Origin: Desulfocicer vacuolatum DSM 3385
GTDB lineage: Bacteria > Desulfobacterota > Desulfobacteria > Desulfobacterales > Desulfobacteraceae
Reading direction: 5' to 3'
DNA: 64,000 bases
Assembly: GCF_900176365.1 (NCBI RefSeq)
Contig: NZ_FWXY01000001.1
Span: 372,001-436,000, forward strand
The stretch's first letter is position 1. Every line of letters starts with the position of its first letter. This document shows positions 31,185 to 53,163 of the stretch, piece by piece. The notes under the pieces are model-generated. The model ran no database searches, was not told the origin of the DNA, and saw only the letters and a program-made list of their open reading frames with translations. The position numbers and the translations under genes were made by a program.

Positions 31185-31213
31185 TTGACAGGAATAATTT
31201 ATTGAGTTAGTTA
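31185..31213 (+). promoter_or_regulatory. Probable sigma-70 promoter of the first B12 operon
   Basis: TTGACA (31185-31190), a 17-bp spacer, and TAGTTA (31208-31213), about 70 bp ahead of the cobalamin riboswitch. Confidence 0.55.
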
Positions 31214-31284
31214 GAACCAATATTTTTCAGATATAGATCCAGCTGAAAATTCTGAAAACCGGCACACGGTTTTCCGGAAAACAG

Positions 31285-31455
31285 CCAAAACAGATTGTGG
31301 GAAAGCTGGACAAGGGAATCCCGTGAAATTCGGGAACGAGCCCGTCGCTGTAACCGGGGACGAACACGGCAAAATGCCACTGATTGTTTTTAAACTTAAA
31401 GATTGGGAAGGCGCCGTCAGTAGAAGGATCCGGAAGTCAGAAAACCTGTCTGAAA
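31285..31455 (+). promoter_or_regulatory. Cobalamin riboswitch 1
   Basis: Shows the class landmarks in order: GGGAATCCCGTGAAATTCGG, GAGCCCGTCGCTGTAA, GCCACTG, GGGAAGGCG and a B12 box AGTCAGAAAACCTGTC (31435-31450). An intrinsic terminator follows at 31521, so B12 probably ends transcription early. It controls the DUF2162/TonB receptor/CobN-like operon. Confidence 0.93.
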
Positions 31456-31520
31456 AATGAACCCGTAATCGCGTGGATGGCGTGTGTGGTTCAAGATCTG
31501 ATGGATAAAAAGGGATTTCC

Positions 31521-31553
31521 AGGATCGGCACTTTATGTCGATCCTTTTTTTTT
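31521..31553 (+). terminator. Terminator of riboswitch 1 expression platform
   Basis: GGATCG (31522-31527) pairs with CGATCC (31539-31544), followed by nine T. It stands between the aptamer and the first gene at 31680. Confidence 0.8.
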
Positions 31554-31679
31554 GCTCAAAATCTGAACAAAATCCATCACCTCACCCGCCTCCCTTTTTT
31601 CATGGATGGTCTGGATCTTTCGGGACGCTCACGCCCCTGCTGCCCCGCCCCATGATTACACCTTGTTCCGGAGGATACA

Positions 31680-32489
31680 ATGGCCCTGAAGAGCCTGTTT
31701 CTGGGAGTTCTTTTTTCCATGGGAATCTTTGCCGTTAAAAGCGGTTTTGGCCTTAATTATTATTTGGGAACCTGTAGTGGTATCCCTAAAAGGGTCTGGG
31801 GCACAACACTCTTTACAGTGCTCTATGGTCTGATTTTTATTGCTTGCACTATTTTGGTTACCACCACCGACCTCATGGCCTGGTTTCCGCTGTTTCAAAT
31901 CATTATTTCCCATGCCATGACCCTTCATTTTTTTTTGGCGGTTCTCATGTGCATCTGGAGCCTGGCCCTGATACGAAAGAAAAAAGGCAACAAAAACAAA
32001 ACCCGGGGCTGGATGCTGCTGGCACTGCCCTGCCCCGTTTGCATGGTGGTTATTTTTTTATCTGTGGCATTTTTCGCAGCCTATGTCCCTGAGCACGTAA
32101 AAGAAACAATTTCCCTGCTTTTTCTGGGATTTATGATCCTGAACCTTTCCACCCTGGGAGCCCTGTATAGACTGGGCAAACGCACCCACACCCCACCGGA
32201 CCATCTGTTGGGAGGAGCCATGTTGTTCATTGCGCTTTATTTTTTGCTGTCCGTGATCATCATGCCCCAGTTTTCAGGTATTGAAGAGATTTACAGCCTC
32301 TCTTTGCATGGCAGTCCCCCAGGACAAGATCTTTTAATGGAAAAGCGATGGACCTTCACCCTGCTGACCCTTTTGTTCATGGGCGGCACCCTCACAGCAA
32401 TGTCCCAGATGAGCCCATCTTCTTTTTTCCATTCCCTGGTCCCAGCCCCTTTACCCTGGAAACGTCACAAAAATATTTATAAAAAATAG
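31680..32489 (+). CDS. DUF2162 multi-pass membrane protein
   Basis: A polytopic inner-membrane protein (269 residues, six to seven segments) of the DUF2162 predicted-transporter family. Notable features are SGFGLNYYLGTC near the N-terminus and the Cys motif LPCPVCMVVIF in a central helix. A GGAGG site supports the ATG. As the first gene under a B12 riboswitch, ahead of a TonB receptor, ExbB-like, DUF2149 and CobN-like genes, it fits the membrane part of an Hmu-type chelatase operon. It may move metal or tetrapyrrole; this is inferred. Confidence 0.8.
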   Translation: MALKSLFLGVLFSMGIFAVKSGFGLNYYLGTCSGIPKRVWGTTLFTVLYGLIFIACTILVTTTDLMAWFPLFQIIISHAMTLHFFLAVLMCIWSLALIRKKKGNKNKTRGWMLLALPCPVCMVVIFLSVAFFAAYVPEHVKETISLLFLGFMILNLSTLGALYRLGKRTHTPPDHLLGGAMLFIALYFLLSVIIMPQFSGIEEIYSLSLHGSPPGQDLLMEKRWTFTLLTLLFMGGTLTAMSQMSPSSFFHSLVPAPLPWKRHKNIYKK

Positions 32490-32559
32490 TACTTTCAATG
32501 TTTGTTGTGTTCCACAGGACATGCCCGTTATTAACAAATCACCCAGGAGAACAATTAAA

Positions 32560-34539
32560 ATGATACCCTCTCAAACAATTCACATCCCCGGCTTCCGGCC
32601 CGGCCTCACCCTGTGGCAGATAAGGATCTGCCCCGTGGATATTGTCACCCTTTTATTGACAGTATTATTCATATTGGGGCCAATCACAGTCCGGGCGGAC
32701 CACAGTCAAACAAAGAACCCAAAAGCCTCCACAACAAAGGCAAACACCGCCATGACGCCTGCGGTCACCCTGGAAGCGGTCACCGTGGTGAGCCGGAAAA
32801 TAGACGATTACATCCATAAAAATCCCAATCAGGTGGTGAGCATGGATGCAAAGGAAATGGCCCAGAGAAATTTCCTGGAGGCCTATGATGTATTGAGCAG
32901 CATGCCCGGCGTGGACGTCAGAAGAGGGTCCAGCGGCATGGGGGCCCGCATATCCATCCGGGGCGGCGGCGGTTCCGGCAGTGTACTGGTACTGGTGGAT
33001 GGTCGTCCCATGAACACCGGTCAATTCAGTGGTGTGGATCTGGGCAGCATTCCCATGGATATTATCAAAAAAATAACCGTATTCAAGCCCCCGGCACCGG
33101 TGTGGCTGGGTCCAGGCAGCAGTGCCGGAGCCATATACATTGAAACCAAACAGGGAAAAGCCGCCAAAACGGCCACATCCAGCGGACGACTGAGAACCGG
33201 TGCCGGTTCCTTTGGCCGTTTTGATCTCAACGGGTCCTGGAAAACCAGCTGGGAAAAAAGCAACCTTCTTTTGGCCGCAGGCTACGGCCACAGGGATGGC
33301 AAACGGGAAAACAGCCAGCGGGATAAAGGCCACTTCAGCTTTAACTGGGACAAAGAGACCCAAAGCCTTGTCAATGTCCAGGTGAACGGCAAGTATTATC
33401 TGTCCAACCATGGCATATCCGGCCCCACCTACAATCCCACCCCCCATGCCCACCAGCGCTATGAAAAGGGAGGGCTTGACATGAAAATCAAGGGATTCAT
33501 GGGAGATACACTGGATTATGAACTTAAGGCTTTCGGGGATTTCACAGATCTTGAAGACACCTCCAACACAGGGGAAAAGGCCAACCTGGATTCATTTTCC
33601 ACCGGCGGGGGTGGAGAAATCTTCTGGAACAATGAAGCCGGAGACAAAGAACTTCGCATGGGAACCTTGATTAAAACCGAACAGGTTGATCAAACCCTCA
33701 CAGGAGAACATGACCGCACCCAGGTATCGCTGCATGCCATGCACACCATGAAGTTCAATCCATTTATTTTAACCATGGGGGCCCGGGGGGATTATTCCAA
33801 TGATTTTGATTTCTCACCGGCAGGCAACCTGGGCCTGAGTTATGAAATCATGCCCGATCTTCTGATGAAAACCAGCCTGGGTTATACCACCAATCTTCCC
33901 AGCTTTGGCCAGCTTTACCAGCCCAGCCACGGCTCCATTGATCAGGTCCGGGGCAATCCTGATCTCAAGGAAGAAAAAATCACCTCCTGGACCCTGGGCA
34001 TCCAGAAAAATTTTAAGAAAAAAAGTTACATGGAACTTGTCGCCTTTCGCACAGACAGCAGGGATCTTATCAAATACCAGCGGGGGGCAGATCTTATCAG
34101 CCGACCGGAAAATGTGGACAAAGCCTGGAAACAGGGAGTGGAAGTCACCTTTAAATATAAATTGGGCAAAGGCCTTTCCCTGGATCTGAACCATGTATGG
34201 CAGGACACAGAAAACGAAGACAACGGCAAAGAGTTAAGTTACGCGCCGGACCACTCCTTTAAAGCAACGCTGAAGTCCAAATTAAAGCGGGGGACCCGCC
34301 TGGAAAGCTCCCTGCGGGCCTATTCCTGCCAGTTTACGGATACGGATAACACAGAGGCCGAGGCCATTCACGGCTATGCCACTGTGGATGCCAAGGTGAT
34401 CGAACCCATTCATATATGCAAGCGTTCCGGTGAGGTGTATCTGCATCTCATGAACCTTCTGGATCGCGACTACTCATCCCATTATGGCTACCCCGACGAC
34501 GGCTTTCGCTTTGTCTGTGGTTTAAATCTTAATTTTTAA
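32560..34539 (+). CDS. TonB-dependent outer-membrane receptor
   Basis: An outer-membrane receptor (659 residues). A signal segment (VTLLLTVLFILGPITVRA) is followed by a possible TonB box (LEAVTVVSR). The plug has DVLSSMPGVDVRR, ISIRGGGGSGSVLVLVDGRP and PVWLGPGSSAGAIYIETKQG. The barrel ends with strands and a terminal Phe (FVCGLNLNF). The start at 32560 is preferred for its AGGAG site; an ATG at 32521 lacks one. It belongs to the riboswitch 1 operon with its own ExbB-like partner next door. The likely substrate is a corrinoid or another metal tetrapyrrole, from context. Confidence 0.92.
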   Translation: MIPSQTIHIPGFRPGLTLWQIRICPVDIVTLLLTVLFILGPITVRADHSQTKNPKASTTKANTAMTPAVTLEAVTVVSRKIDDYIHKNPNQVVSMDAKEMAQRNFLEAYDVLSSMPGVDVRRGSSGMGARISIRGGGGSGSVLVLVDGRPMNTGQFSGVDLGSIPMDIIKKITVFKPPAPVWLGPGSSAGAIYIETKQGKAAKTATSSGRLRTGAGSFGRFDLNGSWKTSWEKSNLLLAAGYGHRDGKRENSQRDKGHFSFNWDKETQSLVNVQVNGKYYLSNHGISGPTYNPTPHAHQRYEKGGLDMKIKGFMGDTLDYELKAFGDFTDLEDTSNTGEKANLDSFSTGGGGEIFWNNEAGDKELRMGTLIKTEQVDQTLTGEHDRTQVSLHAMHTMKFNPFILTMGARGDYSNDFDFSPAGNLGLSYEIMPDLLMKTSLGYTTNLPSFGQLYQPSHGSIDQVRGNPDLKEEKITSWTLGIQKNFKKKSYMELVAFRTDSRDLIKYQRGADLISRPENVDKAWKQGVEVTFKYKLGKGLSLDLNHVWQDTENEDNGKELSYAPDHSFKATLKSKLKRGTRLESSLRAYSCQFTDTDNTEAEAIHGYATVDAKVIEPIHICKRSGEVYLHLMNLLDRDYSSHYGYPDDGFRFVCGLNLNF

Positions 34540-34627
34540 CGCTTGTTTAAAAATCAGGGGATCGGCTGCAATCCCATTAGATTGCAGCTGACTCATCTAT
34601 TTTTAAACTGACCTTTAAGGACGTTCA

Positions 34628-35254
34628 ATGGCTTTTGATGCAATTTTAAAAACTTTTATTTACATTGTTTCCGCTTCTTTATTTTATCCTGTTCTATTTC
34701 TTCTGGTACTGGCTTTTTTGTGGGTCATTGTGTTCAGTGGCGGCTTTTTCGGCCAATGGCTCCAGCGTACCCGCCTGGAAAAATCCCGGCCCGAGGACCT
34801 GCCCGACATCATTCTTAACAAAAAAGAAGCAGCATACCTGCCCCGGAACATCCAGACCTTTATCAGCCGCTTGCGCACCGTGGTCCATGACCCGGCATAT
34901 TCCGAGCTTGCCATAGAAAATTTCATCCAGGACACCACCTTGAACCTGTGGAAAAAAATCGACCGCCTGCGGATTCTGGTGCGTGCGGCCCCTTCACTGG
35001 GGCTCATCGGCACCCTTATTCCCATGGGCACCGGTCTTGCCGCATTGGGCCAGGGGGATTTAAGCCGGCTCTCCTCGGATCTTGTCATTGCCTTTACCAC
35101 CACGGTGGTGGGCATGACCGTGGGCATCACGGCATTTTTCATGTACACCGTCAAACGCCGTTGGATTGAAGAGGATGTCAAGAACCTGGAACTTGCCGCA
35201 GAACTCATTGCAGGGGTAACAGAAGAAAAGGAAGACACCGGTGAAGTATTATAA
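34628..35254 (+). CDS. MotA/TolQ/ExbB proton-channel protein
   Basis: A three-helix proton channel (208 residues). The N-terminal helix is YIVSASLFYPVLFLLVLAFL; the conserved pair of helices is in LVRAAPSLGLIGTLIPMGTG and VIAFTTTVVGMTVGITAFFM. It energises the neighbouring receptor or chelatase with the DUF2149 protein, which replaces ExbD here. Overlap with the next gene (14 bp) suggests coupled expression. AAGGA precedes the ATG. Confidence 0.9.
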   Translation: MAFDAILKTFIYIVSASLFYPVLFLLVLAFLWVIVFSGGFFGQWLQRTRLEKSRPEDLPDIILNKKEAAYLPRNIQTFISRLRTVVHDPAYSELAIENFIQDTTLNLWKKIDRLRILVRAAPSLGLIGTLIPMGTGLAALGQGDLSRLSSDLVIAFTTTVVGMTVGITAFFMYTVKRRWIEEDVKNLELAAELIAGVTEEKEDTGEVL

Positions 35255-35600
35255 AAAAAGACGTCACAGCGGGGTACACAAACCCCTTGGCAATCCTGCA
35301 TTCAGCGATGACGATCCCCTTTCCGGGGTGGCCAACCTCTTTGATGTGGGGCTGGTGTTTATTGTGGGACTCATTGTGACCTTGTTTTCCGCCTATTCCA
35401 TGCAGGATCTGTTTGATGAAAAAAAGAACATGACCATCATGAAGCAGTCGGACAGCGGTGAGATGGAGATCATCACCAAAAAAGGCAATAAGATCAAGGC
35501 CGTGAAGATGTCCAAAAGTAAAATGACGGGCCAGGGTACCCGCCTGGGGGTGGCCTATCAGCTCCAGGATGGTTCCATGGTGTATGTACCGGAAAAATAG
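35241..35600 (+). CDS. DUF2149 membrane protein (ExbD-like partner)
   Basis: A 119-residue protein with one membrane helix (VANLFDVGLVFIVGLIVTLF) whose Asp sits at the membrane edge as in ExbD, followed by a short basic periplasmic part (ITKKGNKIKAVKMSKSKMTG). DUF2149 proteins pair with ExbB-like channels in operons with CobN-like chelatases. Its TAG stop overlaps the first base of a GTAAATATTCGGT repeat end. Confidence 0.85.
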   Translation: MKYYKKRRHSGVHKPLGNPAFSDDDPLSGVANLFDVGLVFIVGLIVTLFSAYSMQDLFDEKKNMTIMKQSDSGEMEIITKKGNKIKAVKMSKSKMTGQGTRLGVAYQLQDGSMVYVPEK

Positions 35601-35645
35601 TAAATATTCGGTGAGTTTTTGTAAATCCGGGGTATTGCAACCAGC
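35600..35645 (+). repeat. Partial end of the GTAAATATTCGGT element
   Basis: GTAAATATTCGGT (35600-35612) followed by a short weakly matching stretch. It is a solo end of the MITE seen whole at 45550-45680 and lies between the DUF2149 and CobN-like genes. Confidence 0.5.
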
Positions 35646-35669
35646 AAAAAAAAGGGATTAATCACAGAA

Positions 35670-38600
35670 ATGAACGTCCAGATGTCTCCCAACAAAAATC
35701 CCTATAAAGGGCATGTCCTTCCGCACACAACGAAGATAGAAAATGGCATTACGCCGCCCCCGACGGCTGCCCTGTCTGGAACAAAAACGCCGAAGGAATT
35801 TCTTATCAAGGCCACCACCCTGATAAAAATGTTGGTGATTGTTTTTCTTCTCATGTCAGGGGCAACGCCCTTGCTTTCAGATGCCCGGGCAGATGAAAAC
35901 GTGGCCATCCTGGATGCAGATACCAACAGTGTCCAGCTGAACCTGGCCCTGCAAAAACTACAACTGCCTGACAGCATTCATACCCGTTTTTTTACCCTGG
36001 CAGACATCAGGGATACCGGAGAAAAGGCAAAAGAGGCAAAAGCCTTTATTGATAAAGCAAAGGTGGTTTTTGTCAATGTCATGCTTTCCGATCTTGCCCA
36101 ATACATGGTCACAGAAAAGCTCATGGCCCGGAAAACCGTTTACGGCATGAGCCGGGGCCGGGACATGGATACCCTGAAACAACAAGGGTTTATTTTTGAT
36201 GAAACCATGGAAGGCTATTATGGCAATCTTTGTGTTTACAATATCATCCAAATGGTGCGCATGGCTGTCCATCGCCATGTGGACGACGCTATTACATTTG
36301 CCCCGGCCCGGCAAAAACCCCATGACATCATTTATCACCCCCATGCACCGGACAAATTCCAGCAGGTAAAAGCGTTTCAGGCATGGTATGAAAACCGTGG
36401 AGATTTCAACCCCAAAGCCCCATGGATGGCCATGCTTTTTTATGCATCCACCCTGCAACAGGGGCAAAGGACGGCTGTGGATGAAATGATTTTGAAGATG
36501 GAACATGAAGGCTTCAACGTCATGCCCTGTTTTGGCACATTAAAAACCGTGTTCAGCCGCTTTCTTCTTCCTGCACGCCCCAAGTTGGACATGGTACTGG
36601 CCTTTACCATGAAATTTTCCTCTTCCATCAACCCGGAAATCCATAAAGCCGTGAACCACCTTAATGTTCCCATATTTAATGTAATAAGGCCCTATGGTAC
36701 CACCATTGAAGAATGGCGAAACAGCGACCTTGGCCTCACCCCTTTTGAATCCACCTGGGCATTGTCCGTGCCTGAATGTTCCGGTGCCATTGAACCCACG
36801 GTGGTGGCCGGTAAAAAACAGATATGGGACGAAACCACGGGAAAACGCCTTTATATTTATGAAAACATTGATGAAACCCTCTCTTTTCTCATTGCCCGCC
36901 TGAAAAAATTGGCCATTCTGCAAAAAAAGCCCAACCCGGAAAAAAAAGTGGCCATTCTCTATTATAACCACAGCCAGGGCAAGCAGAACATCGGTGCCAG
37001 TTATCTCAATGTGTTCCGGAGCCTCCAGGAGATGCTGGGGCGTATGGCAAAGGAGGGATACAGGGTCGACAACGTTGAAAGCCTTTGTGAAACCGGTATC
37101 CAGAAACTGATCATGGCCACCGGCCGCAACATCGGCTCCTGGGCTCCGGGGGAGCTGGATGCCATGATGGCATCGGGTCATGTGGAAACAATTCCCCTGG
37201 CCACCTATGAAAAATGGTTCAAGGCCCTGCCCCCGGATTTTCAGGAAAAGGTAACAGCCCAGTGGGGCCCCCCTGCCAATTGTGCCATCATGGTGAAAGA
37301 CGGGCAGTTGATTTTTCCCATGGTAAAACTTGGCAACCTTGTACTATTGCCGGAACCGGCCCGGGGATACAGTGATGATCCCATGAAACTCTACCACGAT
37401 CCCACCCTCTATCCCCACCACCAGTACATTGCCGCCTATCAGTGGCTTAATCATGTGTTCCATGCCGATGCCATGGTGCATCTGGGTACCCATGCCACCT
37501 ATGAATGGCTTCCGGGCAAACAGACCTGTCTTGCCCCCTGGGATCCTCCGGAAATCATGGTGGGGGACATCCCCAACATCTACCCTTACATTGTGGATGA
37601 TGTGGGTGAGGGCATCCAGGCCAAACGCCGGGGCCGGGCCGTGATCATTGACCACCTCACCCCGCCCATGGCCCAGGCCGATCTGTACAACGAATACGCA
37701 GAGCTCAAGGTGATCATGGGAAAATATGAGCTGTCCCACAGCATGGGCAGCGACACCGCAGGGCAATATCTCATCCGCTTGGAAGAGATGGCCAGAGCGC
37801 TTGGCCTGTTAACAGATCTTGGCCTTGAAGCCTTTGACCATGATGCCGTGGAAGCACTGGATCTCTATCTCCATGAAATGGAAACCAACTCCCTGCCCCA
37901 CGGCCTTCACACCTTTGGTACCGCCTGGTCCCGGGAGGCGGTTAAGGAAACCCTGGCGCTCATTGCACATCAGAACCCCAATGAAGACAAGGGCCTCATC
38001 CGGCAAAACCTTGAGAACTCACCTGTCCGGGAAATGGACAATTTCATCCGGGCCCTGGATGGTGAATACATCCCGGCAGGAGAAGGAAATGATCCGGTAA
38101 GAAACCTTGCCGCCATTCCCACAGGGAAAAATTTCTACGGATTTTCACCGGCCAGGGTACCTTCCAGGGCTGCCTGGGAAATGGGCAAAAAGGCAGCAGA
38201 GGCCCTGATCCGGGATCGCCTGAAAAAGGATGGCACCTACCCCCAAAAGGTGGGGGTGGTGCTGTGGGCCACGGAAACCACCAGAAATGAGGGGGTCCAT
38301 GAAAGCACCATTTTATATCTCATGGGCATGGAACCGGTGTGGGATGCCACGGGCAGGGTCACAGACAGCCGGGTGATCCCGGGCAGGGTTCTGAGCCGTC
38401 CCCGCATTGACGTGTTGATCAACCCTTCAGGGCTCTACCGGGACATGTTCCCGGACAAGCTTTTGTTCCTGGACAAGGCCGTGCAAAAAGCCATGGCCCA
38501 GACGGACATGGAAAATTTCCTGGCAAAAAATAAAAACAGGATAAAAGCCGCTCTCATGGAGTCAGGTCTGGATGAAGCCGGGGCCGAGGAGCAATCCCGA

Positions 38601-39818
38601 TTTCGTATTTTTACGGAAAACACCGGATCTTACGGAAACGGGGTGGCGGAAATGGCCGGCAACTCCGGGGTGTGGGAATCTGATGAAGAGATCTCCCGGG
38701 TGTACATGAACCGCACCCAGTTTGCCGTGGGACAGGGGAAATGGAGCACCCCCGTCAAACAGGCCCTTAAAGAAAATTTAAGGGATGTGGACATTACGGT
38801 CCATTCACGCTCCAGCAATGTTTACGGCCTCATTGATACGGATGATTTTTTCATGTATCTGGGGGGCATGTCCCTTGCTGTTAAAAATATTAACGGAAAA
38901 GCACCAGATACCCGGGTCACCCTGAACCGCCAAAAAAATGAAGTCATTGTGGAAGATGCGGCAAGGACAATCGGCCGGGAGATGCGTACCCGTTATCTCA
39001 ATCCCCAATGGATCGGGGCCATGAAAAAAGAAAACTATGCCGGGGCCCGTCAAATGTCTGAATTTGTGGAAAACTTCTGGGGCTGGCAGGTGACGGTGCC
39101 CGATGCTGTGGGCCAGGCCCAGTGGCAACAGATCAATGAGGTTTATGTTGAGGATAAGTACGGCCGGAATGTTAAGGCATTTTTAAATGAACACAACCCC
39201 TGGGCCTATCAATCCATGACGGCCCGCATGCTGGAAGCTGTGCGCAAGGGGTATTGGCAGGCAGATAAAAAAGTAACGTCGAAACTTGCCGTGGAATATG
39301 CCGTGAACGCCGTGGAAAAAGGGGTGGCCTGCTGTGATCACACCTGCAATAATCCTTTGCTCAATCAGATGGTGGTGAATCTTATTTCCGTGCCCGGGGT
39401 ATTGTCCCCGGAGGTGGTGGAACAATTTAAGATGGCCATTGAAAAAATGGCAAAAAAATCCCTTGAAAAGCAGGTGGCTGAGCGAAAGGCCCTTCAAAAG
39501 GCCCTCAATGCCGACCTTGCCCAATCTGCCCGGCCGGAGGCACCGTCAAATAAGACAAACGCCCAAAAGGAAGCGGTGAATCCACCGGCTGCCACCATGG
39601 ACAATGCAGTTAAATCATCTGACATGGAAAAACCCAGTCACACAGGTGAAGAAGAGCCGGACACCCAAAGTGTTGAAGGGTATAAAATGGAGGAGATGAA
39701 ATCCCAGGATACCCAGACCACAGTGAGTTCCTCCGGGGTTCAATGGTTTGCCGCTGTGTTCATTCTGGTGATGATGGCGCTTTTCGCATGGGGTATTGGC
39801 AGAGGAAAAAGGGGGTAA
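35670..39818 (+). CDS. CobN-like membrane-anchored chelatase (HmuS-like)
   Basis: A very large protein (1382 residues) of the CobN/magnesium-chelatase H family. The family core is seen in MVHLGTHATYEWLPGKQTCL (about 600-620), GVVLWATETTRNEGVHEST and NPQWIGAMKKENYAGARQM. A signal-like helix (about 48-70, LIKMLVIVFLLMSGATPLLS then ADE) and a C-terminal helix (VQWFAAVFILVMMALFAWGIG) after a Pro/Lys/Glu-rich linker indicate a periplasmic enzyme anchored at its C-terminus. This differs from the cytoplasmic CobN of B12 synthesis and matches Hmu-type dechelatases. Residues about 12-34 come from repeat family B, so the true start may be ATG 35829. Confidence 0.88.
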   Translation: MNVQMSPNKNPYKGHVLPHTTKIENGITPPPTAALSGTKTPKEFLIKATTLIKMLVIVFLLMSGATPLLSDARADENVAILDADTNSVQLNLALQKLQLPDSIHTRFFTLADIRDTGEKAKEAKAFIDKAKVVFVNVMLSDLAQYMVTEKLMARKTVYGMSRGRDMDTLKQQGFIFDETMEGYYGNLCVYNIIQMVRMAVHRHVDDAITFAPARQKPHDIIYHPHAPDKFQQVKAFQAWYENRGDFNPKAPWMAMLFYASTLQQGQRTAVDEMILKMEHEGFNVMPCFGTLKTVFSRFLLPARPKLDMVLAFTMKFSSSINPEIHKAVNHLNVPIFNVIRPYGTTIEEWRNSDLGLTPFESTWALSVPECSGAIEPTVVAGKKQIWDETTGKRLYIYENIDETLSFLIARLKKLAILQKKPNPEKKVAILYYNHSQGKQNIGASYLNVFRSLQEMLGRMAKEGYRVDNVESLCETGIQKLIMATGRNIGSWAPGELDAMMASGHVETIPLATYEKWFKALPPDFQEKVTAQWGPPANCAIMVKDGQLIFPMVKLGNLVLLPEPARGYSDDPMKLYHDPTLYPHHQYIAAYQWLNHVFHADAMVHLGTHATYEWLPGKQTCLAPWDPPEIMVGDIPNIYPYIVDDVGEGIQAKRRGRAVIIDHLTPPMAQADLYNEYAELKVIMGKYELSHSMGSDTAGQYLIRLEEMARALGLLTDLGLEAFDHDAVEALDLYLHEMETNSLPHGLHTFGTAWSREAVKETLALIAHQNPNEDKGLIRQNLENSPVREMDNFIRALDGEYIPAGEGNDPVRNLAAIPTGKNFYGFSPARVPSRAAWEMGKKAAEALIRDRLKKDGTYPQKVGVVLWATETTRNEGVHESTILYLMGMEPVWDATGRVTDSRVIPGRVLSRPRIDVLINPSGLYRDMFPDKLLFLDKAVQKAMAQTDMENFLAKNKNRIKAALMESGLDEAGAEEQSRFRIFTENTGSYGNGVAEMAGNSGVWESDEEISRVYMNRTQFAVGQGKWSTPVKQALKENLRDVDITVHSRSSNVYGLIDTDDFFMYLGGMSLAVKNINGKAPDTRVTLNRQKNEVIVEDAARTIGREMRTRYLNPQWIGAMKKENYAGARQMSEFVENFWGWQVTVPDAVGQAQWQQINEVYVEDKYGRNVKAFLNEHNPWAYQSMTARMLEAVRKGYWQADKKVTSKLAVEYAVNAVEKGVACCDHTCNNPLLNQMVVNLISVPGVLSPEVVEQFKMAIEKMAKKSLEKQVAERKALQKALNADLAQSARPEAPSNKTNAQKEAVNPPAATMDNAVKSSDMEKPSHTGEEEPDTQSVEGYKMEEMKSQDTQTTVSSSGVQWFAAVFILVMMALFAWGIGRGKRG
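35702..35772 (+). repeat. Partial repeat family B copy inside the CobN-like 5' end
   Basis: GGGCATGTCCTTCCGCACAC, AACGAAGATAGAAAATGGC and CCGCCCCCGACGG match the left part of the copies at 30914 and 42313; the right arm is missing. It is read through in the annotated frame. Confidence 0.65.
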
Positions 39819-39869
39819 TTACCCAATTACTTAAACTATATTTTTATTTATCAAGGTGCATAAAGGTTA

Positions 39870-40040
39870 TTTTCTATCCGTCAATAGCCTGATTTGCCGA
39901 ACAGGGAACCCCGTTAAAATCGGGGACGGGCCCGCCGCTGTGACCAGGGACGAACGCCGCAGATAAACCACTGTTTCAAAGATTGAAATGGGAAGGTGCG
40001 GAAAACGGATGATCTGGAAGTCAGAAGACCTGCCTTGATA
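39870..40040 (+). promoter_or_regulatory. Cobalamin riboswitch 2
   Basis: Landmarks: CAGGGAACCCCGTTAAAATC, GGGCCCGCCGCTGTGA, CCACTG, ATGGGAAGGTGCGG and B12 box AGTCAGAAGACCTGCC (40019-40034). Downstream, GGGACATCCCGGGTCG and a GGTCCGG/CCGGACC hairpin (40125-40146) precede the receptor start and may form the expression platform. It controls the BtuB-like gene. Confidence 0.93.
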
Positions 40041-40175
40041 ATCAACAGGATATTTTTCGTGGACAGAAAGATATCCAATAAACATCCGTGGATAAAACAG
40101 GGACATCCCGGGTCGATACCCATCGGTCCGGGAATTTTTCCGGACCCATTGTTTATTTCAGTAGAGGAAGGAAAA

Positions 40176-42197
40176 ATGAAAAAGATTTTTATTACAACCA
40201 TGCTGGCCCTGGCCTGTTTCAACCCGGCATGGGCAACCACGGAAGAGGTGGCTCAGGTGGGAGAAATGGTGGTAACAGCCACCCGAGAAGATGCCAGAGC
40301 CATTGATGTCCCCACCCATGTGGAAGTGATCTCCCAGATGCAAATTGAACAGTCCGGTGCACTGAACCTGGGAGATCTTCTGGGAAAATTTACCACAGGC
40401 CATCTGCACAAGTACAACGGCATGCTCACCTCCATCGGCATCCGGGGATTCAGAACCGAGGCCCACGGAGATGACTTAAAAGGCTATGTTCTGCTGCTGG
40501 TGGACGGCCACCGCCTGGGAACAGGTAATGCTGCCAAGATCGATATCGCCCGCATCGAAAAAATCGAAATCATCAAGGGGCCCTCTTCGGCATTGTATGG
40601 CTCTGCTGCCATGGGCGGTGTGGTCAACGTGATCACCAAAAAAAGCACCGGAGACATTAAAACCACCCTGACCCAGGAATTTGGCAGTTTTGACTGGTCT
40701 GAAACCAGCATCTACAGCGGGGGCGGTATCAATGAAAAATGGGGGTATGACCTGTCTGGATCATATTCCGACGTGGATGACTATGATGACCCCGAATTCG
40801 GCACTGTTTACAATACATCGGAGATGCAGAAAAAAATCGGCGGTAACATCACCTTTGCCCCGGCAGACAACCACATGTTCCGTCTGGGGTTTGACATGGC
40901 AGACCTCACCGGGACCTACCCTTCCTGGGACAATTACACCACCTACTCCAACTATGTAAAAGATGCTGTTTCAAAATATGATAAAAGTCATAGATTCTTT
41001 GACCTGGAATATAACGGCGCCTATCTTGACGGCAAACTGAAATGGAAAGCCATGGGCTATTATCTATGGGACAAAAACCACTGGTACTATGGATCTCCTG
41101 ATCCGGATCTGTCCCAGTCAGAATACACCGATGACACCTGGGGAACAGATCAGCAGTTCACCTATGCCCTTGCTTCGTGGAATACCCTTTTAATGGGCTT
41201 TACCCTGGAAACTTTGGAAAAAGAATCAAAGGGCGTTTCCGGCGGTTCCCCTTCCCTGCCCTATACACCGGGCATGGAGTACGATACCCAGGCATTGTTC
41301 CTCCAGGACTCCATGGATTTCATGGACAATCGACTCAACGTGATTCTGGCAGCCCGGTATGACAATTTTGATTTGACCACCAAATCCCCGGAAACCGGTA
41401 CCCTGCTCAGCATCAACGAAAGAAGCGAAAGCTTTGATCATATTTCTCCCAAAGCCGGTGTTTCCATGAAATTCATGGATGAAATGCTCAAGGTGCGCAC
41501 CAATGTAGGGGTAGGGTTCAAGGCGCCCTCAGCAGATCAACTGTCTGCCATGTATGAAAAAGAATCATGGGGATCTGTTTCCCGGTATCTGGGAAATCCG
41601 GATCTGGACCCGGAAACCAGTCTTACCTGGGATGTGGGATTTGATCTTTTCTTCCATGCTGCGGACCTGAGTGTCACCTGGTTCCACACCGATTACAAAG
41701 ATAAAATCGTCACCACCTCCACAGAGTATGACAACAAAACCTGGACCACCTGGGAAAACAGCGGAGAAGCTGAACTCCAGGGATTTGATATCAACCTCAA
41801 GTGCAATCTCAGCCAATTATTCAACTGGGACCCCTTAGTGAGCCTTTATTCCAACATTACCTTTAACACTGATTTTGAGGATAAAGACACCCATGAGGAC
41901 TTGCTCTACATTTCTGACTATGAAATCAAATCAGGTATGAACATTAACCACAAAGGCTGGGGCATGGCCCTGTCCCATGTGCTGGTGGGGCCCCAGATGA
42001 TCACCAATTATGATACCTATGTGGACGAAGAAAAGGGTTCCTTTAGTTTCTGGGATCTGAATCTGAAGTATGACTTCATGGATAATTACGGTATTGAGGT
42101 TAATGTGTTGAATATGTTTGATCAGACCTATGAATGGGTCCGGGGATATATTATGCCGGAAAGAACCTTTAAGGTGGCACTATCCTATACATTCTAA
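40176..42197 (+). CDS. btuB: TonB-dependent receptor, BtuB-like
   Basis: An outer-membrane receptor (673 residues), directly under a cobalamin riboswitch and thus the best candidate for corrinoid uptake. It has a signal peptide (FITTMLALACFNPAWA), TonB box (EMVVTATRED), plug motifs SIGIRGFRTEAHGD, VLLLVDGHR and IEIIKGPSSALYGSAAMGG, and a C-terminal strand ending RTFKVALSYTF. The ATG at 40176 has GAGGAAGG upstream; the open frame extends back to 39996 into the riboswitch but this is not coding. A CbiZ-like gene follows after a repeat-filled gap. The substrate is inferred from regulation and neighbours. Confidence 0.88.
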   Translation: MKKIFITTMLALACFNPAWATTEEVAQVGEMVVTATREDARAIDVPTHVEVISQMQIEQSGALNLGDLLGKFTTGHLHKYNGMLTSIGIRGFRTEAHGDDLKGYVLLLVDGHRLGTGNAAKIDIARIEKIEIIKGPSSALYGSAAMGGVVNVITKKSTGDIKTTLTQEFGSFDWSETSIYSGGGINEKWGYDLSGSYSDVDDYDDPEFGTVYNTSEMQKKIGGNITFAPADNHMFRLGFDMADLTGTYPSWDNYTTYSNYVKDAVSKYDKSHRFFDLEYNGAYLDGKLKWKAMGYYLWDKNHWYYGSPDPDLSQSEYTDDTWGTDQQFTYALASWNTLLMGFTLETLEKESKGVSGGSPSLPYTPGMEYDTQALFLQDSMDFMDNRLNVILAARYDNFDLTTKSPETGTLLSINERSESFDHISPKAGVSMKFMDEMLKVRTNVGVGFKAPSADQLSAMYEKESWGSVSRYLGNPDLDPETSLTWDVGFDLFFHAADLSVTWFHTDYKDKIVTTSTEYDNKTWTTWENSGEAELQGFDINLKCNLSQLFNWDPLVSLYSNITFNTDFEDKDTHEDLLYISDYEIKSGMNINHKGWGMALSHVLVGPQMITNYDTYVDEEKGSFSFWDLNLKYDFMDNYGIEVNVLNMFDQTYEWVRGYIMPERTFKVALSYTF

Positions 42198-42817: not shown

Positions 42818-43972
42818 GTGCTATTGGGTACCTATTACGATGCATTGACCCTTCACAGGAACAACAAAAAAGTATACGCGCGGTTCAATATACCCCACGC
42901 CGTGGTCTCCACCTGCCGGATCAACGGCGGTCTTCGGGATGACATCACCACATTGCTCAACCACCAATCCTGTGAACCCTGCAATCACACCCTGGCCCGG
43001 GCCGCTTCCGTTGTCCGGGAGCCGGAAGCCTATCTTGAACGCATCTGCAGGGAAGAAGATCTGGATCACACCACCTGCGCATCATTGGGAACAGCCGCCA
43101 ATATGAATTACACCGCAGTGGAATCCCTGGAATTCAAGGAACTCACCGTGGTTGCCGTTGCCACCGGAGGTGTGGAAGCCAATGCAGGAAGAGCCGGTGA
43201 CCCAGCCCACTATCATGAAACAGACGGCACCTTTATCCATGAATCCCATCCAGATAAAAAGCCCACCCCCGGCACCATCAACATCATGGTCTTTATCAAT
43301 CGCACCCTTAACCGGGGCGCCCTTGTCCGGGCCATAATCACAGCCACGGAAGCCAAAAGTGCCGCCTTGCAGGAACTGTCCGTTAATTCCCGGTATTCAC
43401 CGGAACTTGCCACCGGTACCGGAACGGATCAGATGGGTATAGCCTGCCAACAGGGGGATGAAATACCCCTGACCAGTTCAGGCAAACACACAAAACTTGG
43501 AGAACTCATCGGCAAAACCGTTAAAAAAGCGGTGAAAAGAACACTGAAACTTCAAAATGAATTGACACCCCAGGGCCAACGGTCCATAAAGATTCATATT
43601 GAACGCCTGGGTACGGATAAGACAAAAATGCTGGAAGGAATCAGCAAATTTCTGGATGAAAAAACAGCCACCCTGCTGAAAAATAATTTTGACAGTGTCA
43701 ACCGGGACCCCCTTGCCGTGGCTGCTGCTGCAGCCCTGATGCACCTGCGGGACAAGTGGGCCTGGGGCATTTTGCCCAAAGGATGCATGAAAGAGATATG
43801 GTCCAGCCAGGGTGCACAGCTGGCAGCGGCTGTTTCTGGAAATATCCATCAAATTCCAGATTATTACCAACGTCTTTCCCAAACCCTTATCACAGTGGAT
43901 GATATCCATCTGCTGCAACTGCTTTACCAGGCCATGGCCATGGGATTTAAAGAGAAATGGAAAAACAACTGA
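42818..43972 (+). CDS. cbiZ: CbiZ-like adenosylcobinamide amidohydrolase
   Basis: A protein of 384 residues. The first ~235 match the CbiZ family, which cuts the amide bond of corrinoid side chains so that the nucleotide loop can be rebuilt: NGGLRDDITTLLNH, GGVEANAGRAGDP, GTINIMVFINRTL, TATEAKSAALQELS and GTGTDQMGIA. About 140 further residues at the C-terminus (helical, LAVAAAAALMHLRDKWAWG) are beyond the usual family length. It starts with GTG at 42818, with AGGAG placed six bases upstream. Its stop overlaps the nitrilase-like gene by 16 bp. With the B12-regulated receptor upstream, it fits corrinoid salvage and remodelling. Confidence 0.85.
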   Translation: MLLGTYYDALTLHRNNKKVYARFNIPHAVVSTCRINGGLRDDITTLLNHQSCEPCNHTLARAASVVREPEAYLERICREEDLDHTTCASLGTAANMNYTAVESLEFKELTVVAVATGGVEANAGRAGDPAHYHETDGTFIHESHPDKKPTPGTINIMVFINRTLNRGALVRAIITATEAKSAALQELSVNSRYSPELATGTGTDQMGIACQQGDEIPLTSSGKHTKLGELIGKTVKKAVKRTLKLQNELTPQGQRSIKIHIERLGTDKTKMLEGISKFLDEKTATLLKNNFDSVNRDPLAVAAAAALMHLRDKWAWGILPKGCMKEIWSSQGAQLAAAVSGNIHQIPDYYQRLSQTLITVDDIHLLQLLYQAMAMGFKEKWKNN

Positions 43973-45519
43973 AAATCGGACTGGTTCACCTGGATGTCCG
44001 GTATAAAAATCCAGAACTGAACCGCAAAACACTTTTACAACTCAATGAAAAAGCTGCCCAAAAAGGCCATCAACTCATCGTTAACACGGAAATGGCCATT
44101 CCCGGATATAGTTTCCAATCCCTGGAAGACATTGCCCCCCATGTGGAAACAGACAGCGGCCCCACCATGACCGGATTGCAGGCCATTGCCCAAAAATATG
44201 GTGTATTCATCTGCCTGGGATTTGCAGAAAAAGACGCTGAAAGCGGCATTTATTACAACTCTGCCCTGGTTCTGGACCCCGGGGGTAATATTGTGTGTAG
44301 ATACCATAAAATCAATGCAGAAACCCGATGGGCCTGCCCGGGTAACGGCGTGCAGGATAATTTTTTTGAGACCCCCTGGGGAAGAATTGGTGTGTTGATC
44401 TGTTCAGATACCTACCATGGACTCATGCCTCGTCAGACCGCCCTTAAAGGAGCCGACCTCATCATTGCCCCGGCCAACTGGCCCCGGGGGGGGCTGGATC
44501 CTGCAGAACTGTGGCGGGTCCGGGCTTTGGAAAATGGTGTTTACATGGTGGGTTGCAATCGGGGGGGAAGGGATCGCACCATGTCCTGCAAAAACGCCCC
44601 TTCCTGCGCCTTTGATCCCCATGGCCGCACCCTTCTGAACCGGGAATCATCAAGCTCTGCCTTGATGACCGTGAATATTCCCCTGGAAAAGGGGCGCCTG
44701 GCCCGGACAAAGCGCTTTGAAAGACTCAAACAGCGCCATCCGGAACGATACCGGCCCATCTATCTGGACATGCGGCATGTCACCTATGGTGGTGGCGATT
44801 ACACCTCCTACTACGATCTTGCCCCTCCGGGCCTTTATGAAATATCCTGCTACACCCAGGTTGCCACGCTTCAGTCCATCCTGAATATTGTGCAAAAACA
44901 CCAAATCCCGGAAAAATCCAATCTTGGCGTGCTGCTTTTTCCAGAACTTCCCCACCAAAAAAATGTCATGGCACTGCTTCCCGTTATTAAACAGCAAATC
45001 CAGGACTCAAAAAAAGCGGTGTGCCTGGGATTCAGAGATGAAGCCGGGGCCTCCAGACAAATTTTCATGACCCCGGACGGCATGGTGTACCACCACGGAA
45101 ACAACTGGACAAAGGAGTGCATCAGCAAGGCAAACGCCCTTCCCGGTGGAGATTGTTACCGCACCATTGTGGACATGGGACCCATCCGTGCCGGTATCTG
45201 CACCCCTGACGAATTGACCCACCCGGAGGTGGCCGTGGCCCATGCCAAACTGGGATGTGATGTACTTTTTTCCTGTGCCGGGCACATTGAACCCTCCTGG
45301 CAGATCGTGGCAGCAGCCAAAACCCTGGAGCGCATCAACATTGCCGTGGCCGGCCATAATATGGGGTTTATCTGCCAGCCCCCGGAATCCCATGACCGAT
45401 GGAAGGAAAACCTGAACACCGCCTCTGGTGTTTGCCGGGCAATGCTTGACTCAAATGAAACCCGGTCCAAAAAATTCCAGGACCGGCTGGATTTTATGAC
45501 CTTGTTGTGCCAGACCTGA
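43957..45519 (+). CDS. Tandem nitrilase-superfamily amidohydrolase
   Basis: A cytoplasmic protein (520 residues) with two carbon-nitrogen hydrolase domains. The first (about 1-265) has the complete Glu-Lys-Cys triad: NTEMAIPGYSF, CRYHKINAE and LICSDTYHGLMPRQ. The second (about 285-510) keeps the frame of the fold (LFPELPHQ, GICTPDELTHPE, LFSCAGHIEPSWQI) and could be active or degenerate. Such enzymes hydrolyse amides and nitriles. It overlaps the cbiZ-like gene and so probably acts on the same pathway, possibly on corrinoid side-chain amides or products of CbiZ. That role is inferred and the real substrate is unknown. Confidence 0.8.
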   Translation: MEKQLKIGLVHLDVRYKNPELNRKTLLQLNEKAAQKGHQLIVNTEMAIPGYSFQSLEDIAPHVETDSGPTMTGLQAIAQKYGVFICLGFAEKDAESGIYYNSALVLDPGGNIVCRYHKINAETRWACPGNGVQDNFFETPWGRIGVLICSDTYHGLMPRQTALKGADLIIAPANWPRGGLDPAELWRVRALENGVYMVGCNRGGRDRTMSCKNAPSCAFDPHGRTLLNRESSSSALMTVNIPLEKGRLARTKRFERLKQRHPERYRPIYLDMRHVTYGGGDYTSYYDLAPPGLYEISCYTQVATLQSILNIVQKHQIPEKSNLGVLLFPELPHQKNVMALLPVIKQQIQDSKKAVCLGFRDEAGASRQIFMTPDGMVYHHGNNWTKECISKANALPGGDCYRTIVDMGPIRAGICTPDELTHPEVAVAHAKLGCDVLFSCAGHIEPSWQIVAAAKTLERINIAVAGHNMGFICQPPESHDRWKENLNTASGVCRAMLDSNETRSKKFQDRLDFMTLLCQT

Positions 45520-46195: not shown

Positions 46196-47554
46196 TCACT
46201 TAACCATCTTTGATAATTGCGCAATGGCCAGCAAGGCTGATTTTTTCTGTTTATCAAATTTAGCGGCCCTTTCAAAGGCCTTCTTTGCCCGATCCATCTG
46301 CTCCAGGTTCCAGGCACAATAGCCCAAAAGCAAAAAATATTCACCTGGTCTTTTGGAGCGCCCGGCCAGTTGTTCGTACACCGAGGCGGCCTTGTCATAC
46401 TGCTCCAGCTCATAAAGAAAGGCGGCCTTTTGCTTTAAAAGATCAAAATCTGACTTCCAAGCCAGGCCCCTGTCAATCCAGGCCAGGGCTTTTTCAGGTT
46501 CATGGGATGCGGTGTAAGCCTGTATGATGCGCTTTATCTTTGTGAGATCCTCTTTGTCCTTGAGAATTTTCTCATAAAAAACCGATGCCCGGGCCGGAAT
46601 ACCCAGGGAAAGATAAAGATCGGCCATGAGAATTTTTTCTTCCCGGGTGGGAGGGGTCAAATAAGAATAAATCAGTAAATTACTCAGCCCGTTTTTCATG
46701 TCATTACGATTAAGATAAAGATGGGATACGGCCTTCCACCACTTGGGTTCCGTGGGGTCGGTGCGGGTGAGCATTTTTCCATATGCCAGGGCTTTTTTGC
46801 TCATTTTAAGGTTCAAATACTGGTACAACAAAATTTCCTGCCACTTTTTCTTTTTCTCACCGGTGAACTTTCCGGCCAGAATCTCCACATGGGGAAGGGC
46901 TGTTTTGTTTTTATCCATGGCAAAAAGGATGCTCACATAATTTTCCCGCCATGCCGGGGAAAACGATTTGGGATGTTTTTTTATGAGACGGTTAAAGGTC
47001 TTTAAGGCCCTTGAATGGTCATTGGCCTGGAAATAGCAGATGGCCCCATAATAAAGGTGACTGGCGTTTTTTTCCGGGCTTGCATCATACCCTTTTACAA
47101 AGGCCCGGGCCGCTTTGTTCATTTGATCCAGATCGTAGCGGCATTTGGCCAGATTAAGCCAGGCCGGTGAAAGATCCGGCTTTTTTTTCACGGCCTGATC
47201 ATAGGCCCGGGCCGCTCGTTTCAGCCAGGTCCCGGTCTTTCCCGTACCCTTTTTTTCAGAACACATTAAACAGGTGTTGCCAAGCAGAAAATCAATATAA
47301 TAGTGGGTATACCCTTTTTTCTCAGCCGTCCCGGGATCAACACCCTTTTGTTTGGCCTTAAAATTCTCAAGAACGATAACAGCTTCCTGTAATTTTCCCT
47401 TTTGAATCAGGGATTCCACTTTATTGATGCACATGGCGGCCCCCAGGGGAAGCTGTTCTCCGGCACCGGCCCCCAGAGGCAACCCTGCCATGATCACCAG
47501 TAAAATAATAAGACTCGCAAATAAGGACCATCTGTCTTTGGGGTGTATCATCAT
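46196..47554 (-). CDS. Exported TPR protein of the TonB2 operon
   Basis: A periplasmic TPR protein (452 residues) with a signal peptide (LFASLIILLVIMAGLPLGAGA). It has at least eight TPR-like pairs, for example SPAWLNLAKCRYDLDQMNKA, NDHSRALKTFNRLIKKHP and PGEYFLLLGYCAWNLEQMDR. It is the last gene of the operon and overlaps the TonB stop by 4 bp. It matches the 829-residue TPR protein at 425 in position but is shorter. TPR partners of TonB2 systems are thought to organise the periplasmic complex. Confidence 0.82.
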   Translation of the reverse strand: MMIHPKDRWSLFASLIILLVIMAGLPLGAGAGEQLPLGAAMCINKVESLIQKGKLQEAVIVLENFKAKQKGVDPGTAEKKGYTHYYIDFLLGNTCLMCSEKKGTGKTGTWLKRAARAYDQAVKKKPDLSPAWLNLAKCRYDLDQMNKAARAFVKGYDASPEKNASHLYYGAICYFQANDHSRALKTFNRLIKKHPKSFSPAWRENYVSILFAMDKNKTALPHVEILAGKFTGEKKKKWQEILLYQYLNLKMSKKALAYGKMLTRTDPTEPKWWKAVSHLYLNRNDMKNGLSNLLIYSYLTPPTREEKILMADLYLSLGIPARASVFYEKILKDKEDLTKIKRIIQAYTASHEPEKALAWIDRGLAWKSDFDLLKQKAAFLYELEQYDKAASVYEQLAGRSKRPGEYFLLLGYCAWNLEQMDRAKKAFERAAKFDKQKKSALLAIAQLSKMVK

Positions 47555-48306: not shown

Positions 48307-48316
48307 GGGTAACGGC

Positions 48317-48736
48317 CTATCCCCCCTGGGGCAGACTGGCTGCCAGGGCCACATTTTCCGCACCGGCCAGTTTGCAGTTGTCCATCACATTGATCACAAG
48401 CCCGGTGACACTGTCTTTATCTGCCACAATAACCACACTGGCCTCGGGATTTTCCGCCAGGGCACGTTCCACATTGGCCCTGACAGCCCTGGGATCTATT
48501 TCCCGTTTATCCATGTGCACGGTATTGTCCCGGGTAACGCCAATGAGAATGGTGGTGCCTGTTTTACTCACCGCAGTGCTGGCTGCCGGGCGGGAGATAT
48601 CCACACCGGTTTCTTTGACAAAGGAGGTTGTCACCAGAAAGAAAATCAATAAAATGAACACCATGTCAATGAGAGGGGCAATGTTGAGTTCCAGATTCCC
48701 CTTTTTGCCCCGCCGGGCTGCTGATATATTTAACAT
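48317..48736 (-). CDS. exbD: ExbD biopolymer transport protein
   Basis: A 139-residue ExbD with a single N-terminal helix carrying the proton-relay Asp in APLIDMVFILLIFFLVTTSF, and a periplasmic domain (ISRPAASTAVS, ILIGVTRDNTVHMDKREI, VVIVADKDSVTGLVINVMD). It forms the channel core with the ExbB proteins encoded just upstream. Confidence 0.93.
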   Translation of the reverse strand: MLNISAARRGKKGNLELNIAPLIDMVFILLIFFLVTTSFVKETGVDISRPAASTAVSKTGTTILIGVTRDNTVHMDKREIDPRAVRANVERALAENPEASVVIVADKDSVTGLVINVMDNCKLAGAENVALAASLPQGG

Positions 48737-48747
48737 GAGTTATTTCC

Positions 48748-49344: not shown

Positions 49345-49349
49345 GGGGT

Positions 49350-50801: not shown

Positions 50802-50827
50802 TATAAAAAGTCCTCGGGAAAATAGTG

Positions 50828-51601: not shown

Positions 51602-51663
51602 TTGTCTATCCTGTTCGATGTTTCAGTTTTTATTGATTTTATTGATTTGATTTTCATTCCGGC

Positions 51664-51911: not shown

Positions 51912-51925
51912 CATACGCAAAGTCA

Positions 51926-53160: not shown

Positions 53161-53163
53161 AGC

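Follow-up and report, generated by a model that had tools for sequence, protein, structure and literature searches.

An anchored CobN-like protein in a cobalamin riboswitch-led operon of Desulfocicer vacuolatum: a candidate periplasmic corrinoid de-chelatase

The operon described here lies in a 64,000-nucleotide stretch of the Desulfocicer vacuolatum DSM 3385 genome (positions 372001–436000 of contig NZ_FWXY01000001.1; G000:C47), referred to below as the window, and coordinates are window positions unless a locus number (L) is given. It is headed by a cobalamin riboswitch aptamer (RF00174; 31277–31467, + strand) that scored 85.9 bits with the Rfam covariance model against a gathering threshold of 31.5, and 132 bits with a model of our own (R1), this copy being itself among the sequences from which R1 was built. 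An intrinsic terminator with a 10-pair stem and a T8 tail (31521–31545, +) lies between the riboswitch and the first gene; the folding energy of this hairpin stretch is −14.9 kcal/mol (z −3.6), and the pattern scan on its own is at chance level (1 match vs 0.8 expected from shuffles). The five genes that follow are co-stranded (+), with intergenic gaps of 31, 88, −14, and 69 nt. They encode a DUF2162 membrane protein (31680–32489; Pfam PF09930, 127 bits), a TonB-dependent outer-membrane receptor with Pfam barrel and plug domains (32521–34539), a MotA/TolQ/ExbB-family protein (34628–35254; PF01618, 51.6 bits vs a cut-off of 22.9), a DUF2149 protein (35241–35600; PF09919, 113 bits), and a CobN-like protein of 1382 residues (35670–39818) that matches PF02514 (CobN-Mg_chel) with 1036 bits in two stretches. 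The top NCBIfam model for the receptor was TonB-B12 at 122.7 bits, far under its cut-off of 599.7. Hydrophobic segments were found near both termini of the CobN-like protein, at residues ~44–62 and ~1359–1377. An earlier note made from the sequence alone had described this same arrangement of riboswitch, terminator, and genes, and the profile searches bore it out.

Relatives of the operon were sought through its DUF2149 gene. A DUF2149 search of 297 genomes from the phylum gave matches in 38 at an E-value of 0.001, with 34 scoring above the cut-off; a CobN-family match was present in 32 of these 34 and in 54 of the 263 others (a hand count, with at most two candidates scored per genome), and in the two DUF2149 genomes without one the DUF2149 sequence is partial and contains stops. 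Loci were collected by a profile search of genome contigs with the DUF2149 alignment, and because the best 80 of 534 relatives were kept, the set is biased toward near relatives. Plasmid records contributed the loci from Bacteroidota, T. lovleyi, and Proteobacteria. Because the loci were located via DUF2149, the occurrence of this gene beside CobN is by construction, which does not hold for the other genes. The 122 DUF2149 genes were reduced to 113 without identical C-termini, of which 96 have CobN in their cluster, a cluster being defined as co-stranded recognised genes with gaps of at most 800 nt. Of these, 74 could be tested because their upstream sequence runs to at least 600 bp; the cluster in the window is one of them. 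Labelling by phmmer with a few exemplars per family (one for BtuC) found ExbB in all 74 clusters, DUF2162 in 64, a TonB receptor in 54, a BtuF-CbiZ open reading frame (ORF) of at least 600 residues in 38, TonB in 9, and a BtuC-type permease in 1.

The earlier note had proposed a survey of riboswitch-linked homologues. Of the 74 clusters, 48 have a cobalamin riboswitch immediately upstream, at a distance of at most 900 nt, where the riboswitch density in the remainder of these loci predicts 0.9; in 50 clusters one lies within or upstream of the cluster. Thirteen of these riboswitches, every one initially detected with Rfam, served to build the search model. Clusters containing BtuF-CbiZ have the riboswitch in 29 of 38 cases and those without it in 21 of 36. 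By contrast, none was found at the three HmuY operons, upstream stretches included in the scan.

The BtuF-CbiZ genes are informative in their own right. All nine proteins run through Pfam show a periplasmic binding domain together with CbiZ, and the N-terminus is hydrophobic in 53 of the 59 ORFs of 600–740 residues that carry this label (near-copies counted). CbiZ converts adenosylcobinamide to adenosylcobyric acid, and the bacterial type cleaves adenosyl-pseudo-B12 (PMC3541065). Judged by its domains, BtuF-CbiZ would join a corrinoid binder to a corrinoid amidohydrolase, mostly with an export signal, and no other finding points as strongly to a corrinoid substrate as the apparent presence within the operon of an exported CbiZ fused to a corrinoid-type binder. 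Among the titles listed by a literature search, with most subscription papers and all preprints outside its scope, none was on a periplasmic CbiZ.

To place the CobN-like protein, trees were built from 99 CobN-family proteins with near-copies removed and, more carefully, from a 43-protein subset; support is given as ultrafast bootstrap/Shimodaira–Hasegawa-like approximate likelihood-ratio test (SH-aLRT). In the 43-protein tree, a branch with support of 100/99 separates the DUF2149-linked proteins and HmuS from cytoplasmic CobN, BchH, and the three other CobN copies of this genome. The window protein's own clade (100/100) comprises 17 rows in the subset and 67 in the large tree, and the HmuS clade (3 rows, 100/100) lies outside it. 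Transmembrane-like segments follow the same division: an N-terminal one is present in 73 of the 88 anchored-side proteins vs 1 of the 11 on the cytoplasmic side of the large set, and a C-terminal one in 83 of 88 vs 0 of 11. Two NCBIfam CobN equivalog models scored 967 bits against a cut-off of 1619 and 633 against 822, and the remaining CobN models were also under their cut-offs. One row, L167, had been labelled BchH/ChlH beforehand but groups with CobN, and it was counted as CobN in the residue comparison below. The CobN Pfam profile aligns to many of the DUF2149-linked CobN-like proteins in two separate stretches (~2–610 and ~677–1088) and to most other proteins in a single one; since either group has exceptions, the pattern marks the anchored type only roughly. 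A juxtamembrane SSGxxW motif at the C-terminus occurs in 60 of the 67 rows of the window protein's clade and in 0 of the 32 other rows; the motif is uninformative about a motor contact shared with HmuS. At L079, from Desulfosarcina cetonica, the CobN-like gene is split into three ORFs (228, 725, and 396 residues), reflecting either a decayed gene or sequence errors.

The residues lining the cleft were compared in the same alignment. The catalytic His of HmuS (His538, in the motif HFG(T/A)HG) is His in 99 of 99 rows, and the window protein reads HLGTHA at this site. The position following the HxGxH motif is Trp throughout the 85 anchored rows outside HmuS and the 9 rows on the CobN side, and Phe in all three HmuS and both BchH rows. 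The column of HmuS His1209, which lies in the motif LSLDHxxEFMGG, is Asp in 65 of the 67 rows of the window protein's clade (Gly in 2) and in 5 of 5 CobN rows, the window protein itself reading LIDTDDFFMYLGG with Asp in place of His. It is His in 3 of 3 HmuS rows, 2 of 2 BchH rows, and the Azospirillum protein, as well as in the PDB chains of HmuS and ChlH (6ytn); the other 22 rows have Asp in 20, His in Azospirillum, and Gly in one. HmuS His254, the site-1 heme ligand, corresponds to Ser (MAFFT column) or Phe (phmmer alignment) in the window protein; the three HmuS rows all have His there, as do 2 of the 67 rows of the window protein's clade, so that the column is loosely aligned. At two cleft positions, then, the window protein carries the residues of the corrin enzyme CobN and not those of the porphyrin proteins HmuS and BchH. 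The comparison yields a testable code, Trp/Asp for corrin and Phe/His for porphyrin. Two candidate identities were rejected: that of a cytoplasmic-type CobN, since the trees put the protein across the 100/99 branch, and that of an hmu operon proper, by tree position and residues. The firm grouping with cytoplasmic CobN that the earlier note had set as grounds for giving up its reading was thus not observed, while its label of an Hmu-type operon needs correcting, as the protein falls outside the HmuY-linked HmuS clade and lacks both His254 and His1209.

Taken together, these data make it likely that the operon handles corrinoids, insofar as function can be read from sequence. The earlier note had drawn this link from the riboswitch alone, and it has gained further support from the riboswitches of 48 and the BtuF-CbiZ genes of 38 of the 74 clusters and from the two CobN-type cleft residues. 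Removal of cobalt is the best single reading: the operon may encode a periplasmic corrinoid de-chelatase that salvages cobalt under B12 shortage, a tentative proposal to which we give a little less than an even chance. HmuS, on the neighbouring branch, is a demonstrated de-chelatase (PMC12583661). We infer the following course of events. When adenosylcobalamin is scarce, transcription would read through the riboswitch terminator, and the TonB receptor, powered by a separate riboswitch-led Ton system, would import corrinoid to the periplasm. There, in many relatives, BtuF-CbiZ would capture the corrinoid and remove its nucleotide loop; in this organism the genome encodes a BtuF-CbiZ-BtuF protein at a different riboswitch locus that could do the same. 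The anchored CobN-like protein would extract cobalt from the corrin ring with energy from ExbB-DUF2149, which is the weakest step, and the metal ion would enter through DUF2162 to supply new B12 synthesis. The single CbiC protein of the genome, one marker only, suggests de novo corrinoid synthesis and hence a demand for cobalt.

DUF2162 is a candidate permease for the released metal, as suggested by its place in the operon, by an invariant His and Cys, and by its replacement at one Runella locus. The residues invariant in 45 sequences are G24, F53, H83, P117, P119, C121, and M181. The Runella protein has matches to NicO and DsbD_2, both under cut-offs. The top hit of DUF2162 with VIA-align was SLC33A1 at Z 9.5, which may merely reflect a common arrangement of helical proteins.

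DUF2149 has one transmembrane helix followed by a small beta domain (AlphaFold model with a predicted local distance difference test score, pLDDT, of 74.7), and an Asp within the helix, D35, is invariant in 48 sequences. We propose it as a putative ExbD-like partner of the ExbB-family protein, which would form the other part of a motor. It gave no Pfam ExbD match and no PDB structural match at an E-value of 0.001, and hhalign against ExbD returned a probability of 5.8% with the transmembrane Asp in register; its description as a proven ExbD homologue is unsupported, this register and the gene order being what favours it. The cytoplasmic class I cobaltochelatase runs on CobS/CobT and ATP (PMC7689651), while the published view of HmuU/HmuV is that they energise the receptor HmuR (PMC12583661). 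Queries with ChlI and ChlD-like proteins recognised no AAA+ partner in the window. Among the 140 loci searched, high ChlI/ChlD-type scores were obtained only at L118, L164, and L169, with a weak match at L100. The proteins at L164 and L169 accompany cytoplasmic CobN, and those at L118, an anchored locus, are encoded by ChlI and ChlD-like genes ~3.6 kb upstream of the riboswitch. AAA+ neighbours accompany one of the three cytoplasmic CobN copies of the genome, with a partner at L174 and none in the stretches examined around the copies at L172 and L173. A simple rule that cytoplasmic CobN goes with AAA+ and anchored CobN with ExbB is therefore weakened by L172, L173, and L118.

Several findings speak against receptor energisation as the full account. 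A conventional ExbD is also present in 10 of the 96 clusters, and a Ton system lies close to the operon in the window. In addition, the DUF2149, DUF2162, ExbB, and CobN families co-occur (co-occurrence only) in the genome of the archaeon Methanosarcina acetivorans, which has no outer membrane. There is no ATP outside the cytoplasm, which is the setting of the proposed extraction. On the strength of the co-present ExbD, the nearby Ton system, and the M. acetivorans families, we propose that ExbB-DUF2149 could be a proton-driven motor that replaces the ATP-driven AAA+ subunits, acts through the C-terminal membrane helix of the anchored CobN-like protein, and powers metal extraction. This is doubtful, its probability being slightly lowered because L172 and L173 have no ChlI/ChlD and L118 has them. 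In an extended form, the same motor would serve to take iron from heme in HmuY operons, cobalt from corrinoids in riboswitch operons, and perhaps nickel from nickel complexes at two plasmid loci. The first, from Runella slithyformis (L157:4332–12366), has a TonB receptor, a protein with a urease-accessory annotation that takes the place of DUF2162, ExbB, DUF2149, and CobN inside hypABF/CDE, a hydrogenase-maturation context pointing to nickel. In the second, from Azospirillum brasilense (L163:3569–15527), CobN-ExbB-DUF2149 has nikR, a TonB receptor, and an iron-type ABC transporter in its vicinity, and DUF2149 is followed by a cobalamin riboswitch. These two loci suggest one machine with several metal sources. 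Two further plasmid matches gave no clue to the metal: a Comamonadaceae ExbB-DUF2149-CobN set stands alone near a Crp/Fnr regulator, and around a Paracoccus match the annotation shows no genes of this set. If correct, the motor proposal would give HmuU/HmuV a role other than receptor energisation and would explain the retention of ExbB-DUF2149 in heme, corrinoid, and possibly nickel versions of the operon, namely as the energy to extract metal. Among the titles listed by the literature search described above, none was on a proton-driven chelatase or on ExbB-DUF2149 as a chelatase motor.

A number of observations weigh against cobalt removal. The same search turned up neither a known enzyme for taking cobalt out of a corrin nor biochemical work on the branch of the window protein, and Ni-corrins have been termed exceptionally resistant to loss of their metal (PMC7693184). 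Sequence does not reveal in which direction the reaction runs, and CobN itself inserts. His1209, which is thought to be involved in de-chelation by HmuS, has no equivalent in the window protein. The Trp and Asp may be ancestral and not readouts of substrate, because no anchored branch other than HmuS lacks the Trp and very few lack the Asp, and both are also seen in branches with nickel-gene neighbours; Azospirillum has His at the Asp position, and the porphyrin side of the comparison consists of 5 rows plus the PDB chains. Many tree rows deviate in amino-acid make-up, and the model ignores such differences. No riboswitch lies inside or within 900 nt of 24 of the 74 clusters, although 9 of these have one on the same strand 1 to 6 kb farther upstream. 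The window operon has no BtuF-CbiZ, and the CbiZ encoded next to it looks cytoplasmic. BtuC-type genes were found at seven loci overall (L059, L099, L104, L113, L115, L121, and L163), mostly adjoining on the opposite strand, so that there may be an importer of intact corrinoid. Foldseek found no match at an E-value of 0.001 for the AlphaFold model of DUF2162 (pLDDT 86). Finally, Bacteroides fragilis btuS1 btuS2 mutants implicate heme iron, yet release of protoporphyrin IX was kept (PMC6460266).

Three other explanations have to be set beside cobalt removal. If the reaction ran in the other direction, the protein would insert or exchange metal, putting cobalt into metal-free or mis-metallated periplasmic corrins and making salvaged rings usable. 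This would fit the activity of CobN, which has the same Trp and Asp and inserts cobalt, and a riboswitch that calls for more B12 when it is short suits repair as well as salvage; the pairing with corrinoid-trimming BtuF-CbiZ in relatives and the BtuC-type genes at the seven loci speak for it as well. We consider it unlikely, however, as HmuS, the nearest characterised branch, removes metal (PMC12583661) and a BtuC-type permease for the finished corrinoid is found in 1 of 74 clusters, although the genome has eight FecCD genes above cut-off outside the window operon. Quite unlikely is a non-catalytic role, in which the protein would be a periplasmic corrinoid holder that relays cargo from receptor to importer while ExbB-DUF2149 energises the receptor. 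Binding of heme by HmuS at a site apart from the proposed catalytic cleft and the published role of HmuU/HmuV in energising HmuR (PMC12583661) are in keeping with such a role, but the HxGxH histidine is retained in every row, ExbB is present in all 74 clusters and the TonB receptor in 54, and energisation of the receptor is hard to square with the conventional ExbD of 10 clusters and the nearby Ton system of the window. The least probable of the three, and improbable in our view, is that the protein acts on heme or a cobalt porphyrin and not on a corrinoid, and that control by B12 mirrors the economy of cobalt or methionine. Among solved structures, the relative that scores best with the CobN-like protein is PDB HmuS, a second receptor in the window has TonB-hemin as its top NCBIfam model (224 bits, under the cut-off of 317), and the B. 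fragilis btuS1 btuS2 double mutant grows poorly on heme iron (PMC6460266). Opposed to this are the CobN-type Trp/Asp and the missing His254 and His1209 equivalents in the window protein, the BtuF-CbiZ partners in relatives, and the 0 of 3 HmuY operons with a cobalamin riboswitch.

Among known systems, the window operon is closest to HmuS and hmuYRSTUV of Bacteroidota, with which it shares an anchored CobN relative on a neighbouring tree branch, a TonB receptor, an ExbB-like protein, DUF2149, and a membrane protein at the position of DUF2162. It differs in having the cobalamin riboswitch and no recognised HmuY (a query with one exemplar, from L162, had no match in the window, which is weak evidence), in the separate clade of its CobN-like protein and the two missing His equivalents, and in having relatives with BtuF-CbiZ; hmu operons are iron-regulated (PMC10434189). 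The BtuS family, credited to Rodionov 2003, has been described as a third, exported and anchored CobN-related type with a predicted role in metalloporphyrin salvage (PMC6460266). With its CobN domain, its hydrophobic ends, and a clade of its own in a tree without BtuS1, the window protein may be of this type; BtuS1 and BtuS2 of B. fragilis, by contrast, were tested for heme iron. In 2023, a cobalamin riboswitch was reported ahead of Hmu-like operons of B. fragilis, which were suggested to be perhaps for cobalamin rather than heme (PMC10100974). The window shares this arrangement; CbiZ, the residue comparison, the survey outside Bacteroidota, and the mechanism go beyond the available part of that account. 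The cobN-exbB-exbD-tonB genes of T. lovleyi pSZ77 were regarded as serving transport, and the biochemical role of their CobN, deemed functionally distinct since no CobS/CobT was found, was given as unknown; the available part of that paper does not name DUF2149 or DUF2162 (PMC3403914). In our survey this is the same operon as that of the window, with riboswitches, TonB receptor, DUF2162, ExbB, DUF2149, and CobN. The class I chelatases CobNST and ChlHID belong to the same family as the window protein, and CobN shares its cleft Trp/Asp; unlike them, the window operon has no recognised AAA+ partner, and its protein has hydrophobic segments near both ends and lies across the 100/99 branch.

The window operon is thus a corrinoid-linked variant of the HmuS/BtuS kind, real, conserved, and linked to a B12 riboswitch. 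Riboswitch-led Hmu-like operons (PMC10100974) and the BtuS type (PMC6460266) are already in print. Among the titles listed by the literature search, within the scope given above, none was on a corrinoid de-chelatase. The bare arrangement is not new, and what is added here is the tree placement, the riboswitch survey, the link to BtuF-CbiZ, the cleft residues, and the comparison of ExbB-DUF2149 with AAA+ partners. To our knowledge, cobalt is generally regarded as staying in the corrin once inserted. If cobalt removal is correct, such an enzyme would alter the picture of how anoxic communities cycle cobalt and B12, and it could account for the import of corrinoids by bacteria that apparently make B12 themselves.

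The wider genome is rich in related functions. At least 17 cobalamin riboswitches scored above cut-off (150 of 271 first-look candidates were scored), and there are two CbiZ proteins. One of these is the 978-residue BtuF-CbiZ-BtuF protein (L203:3052–5988, −), which has a signal-like N-terminus and whose gene has a BtuC-type gene on one side and a riboswitch-led TonB receptor gene on the other. The L174 cluster (L174:3768–16695, −) contains a TonB receptor, cytoplasmic CobN, a binding protein, a FecCD permease, a probable ATPase (assigned by eye), and two Mg-chelatase-type AAA+ genes, and is a cytoplasmic counterpart of the window system. At L172 (L172:1466–7242, +), a cobalamin riboswitch (1466–1631) precedes two ABC-transporter-like ORFs and cytoplasmic CobN, with no AAA+ partner within the stretch.

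Within the window, a second cobalamin riboswitch that the earlier note did not mention (39837–40051, +; 111.6 bits) starts 18 nt past the CobN-like gene and heads the next operon. This operon encodes the second TonB-dependent receptor, with Pfam barrel and plug (40158–42197, +, from an internal start in a frame open from 39996), and the other CbiZ, an adenosylcobinamide amidohydrolase (42818–43972, +; PF01955, 209.9 bits) in which a signal peptide is not apparent (N-terminal hydropathy 1.11). The CbiZ gene stands alone, unfused, and is overlapped by a gene for a carbon-nitrogen hydrolase of 520 residues (43957–45519, +; PF00795, 129 bits), the pair (42818–45519) lying in the same riboswitch-led operon; the hydrolase is possibly a second amidase for corrin side chains. 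On the opposite strand lies the conventional Ton system (46196–52786, −), with Pfam matches to DUF3450, DUF3450-ExbB, ExbB, TonB, and TPR, and with a riboswitch of its own (52984–53163, −; 105.7 bits). Its ExbD (48317–48736) was assigned by phmmer at 30 bits, and Pfam gave no match for its first ORF (51926–52786, 286 residues). A further cobalamin riboswitch with a long internal insertion (53356–53611, +) was detected with Rfam. A porin-like gene, slightly under the Pfam cut-off, begins downstream of it at 53840, and farther on an ORF at 55261–56544 (+) has a marginal match to the N-terminal domain of lactate racemase.

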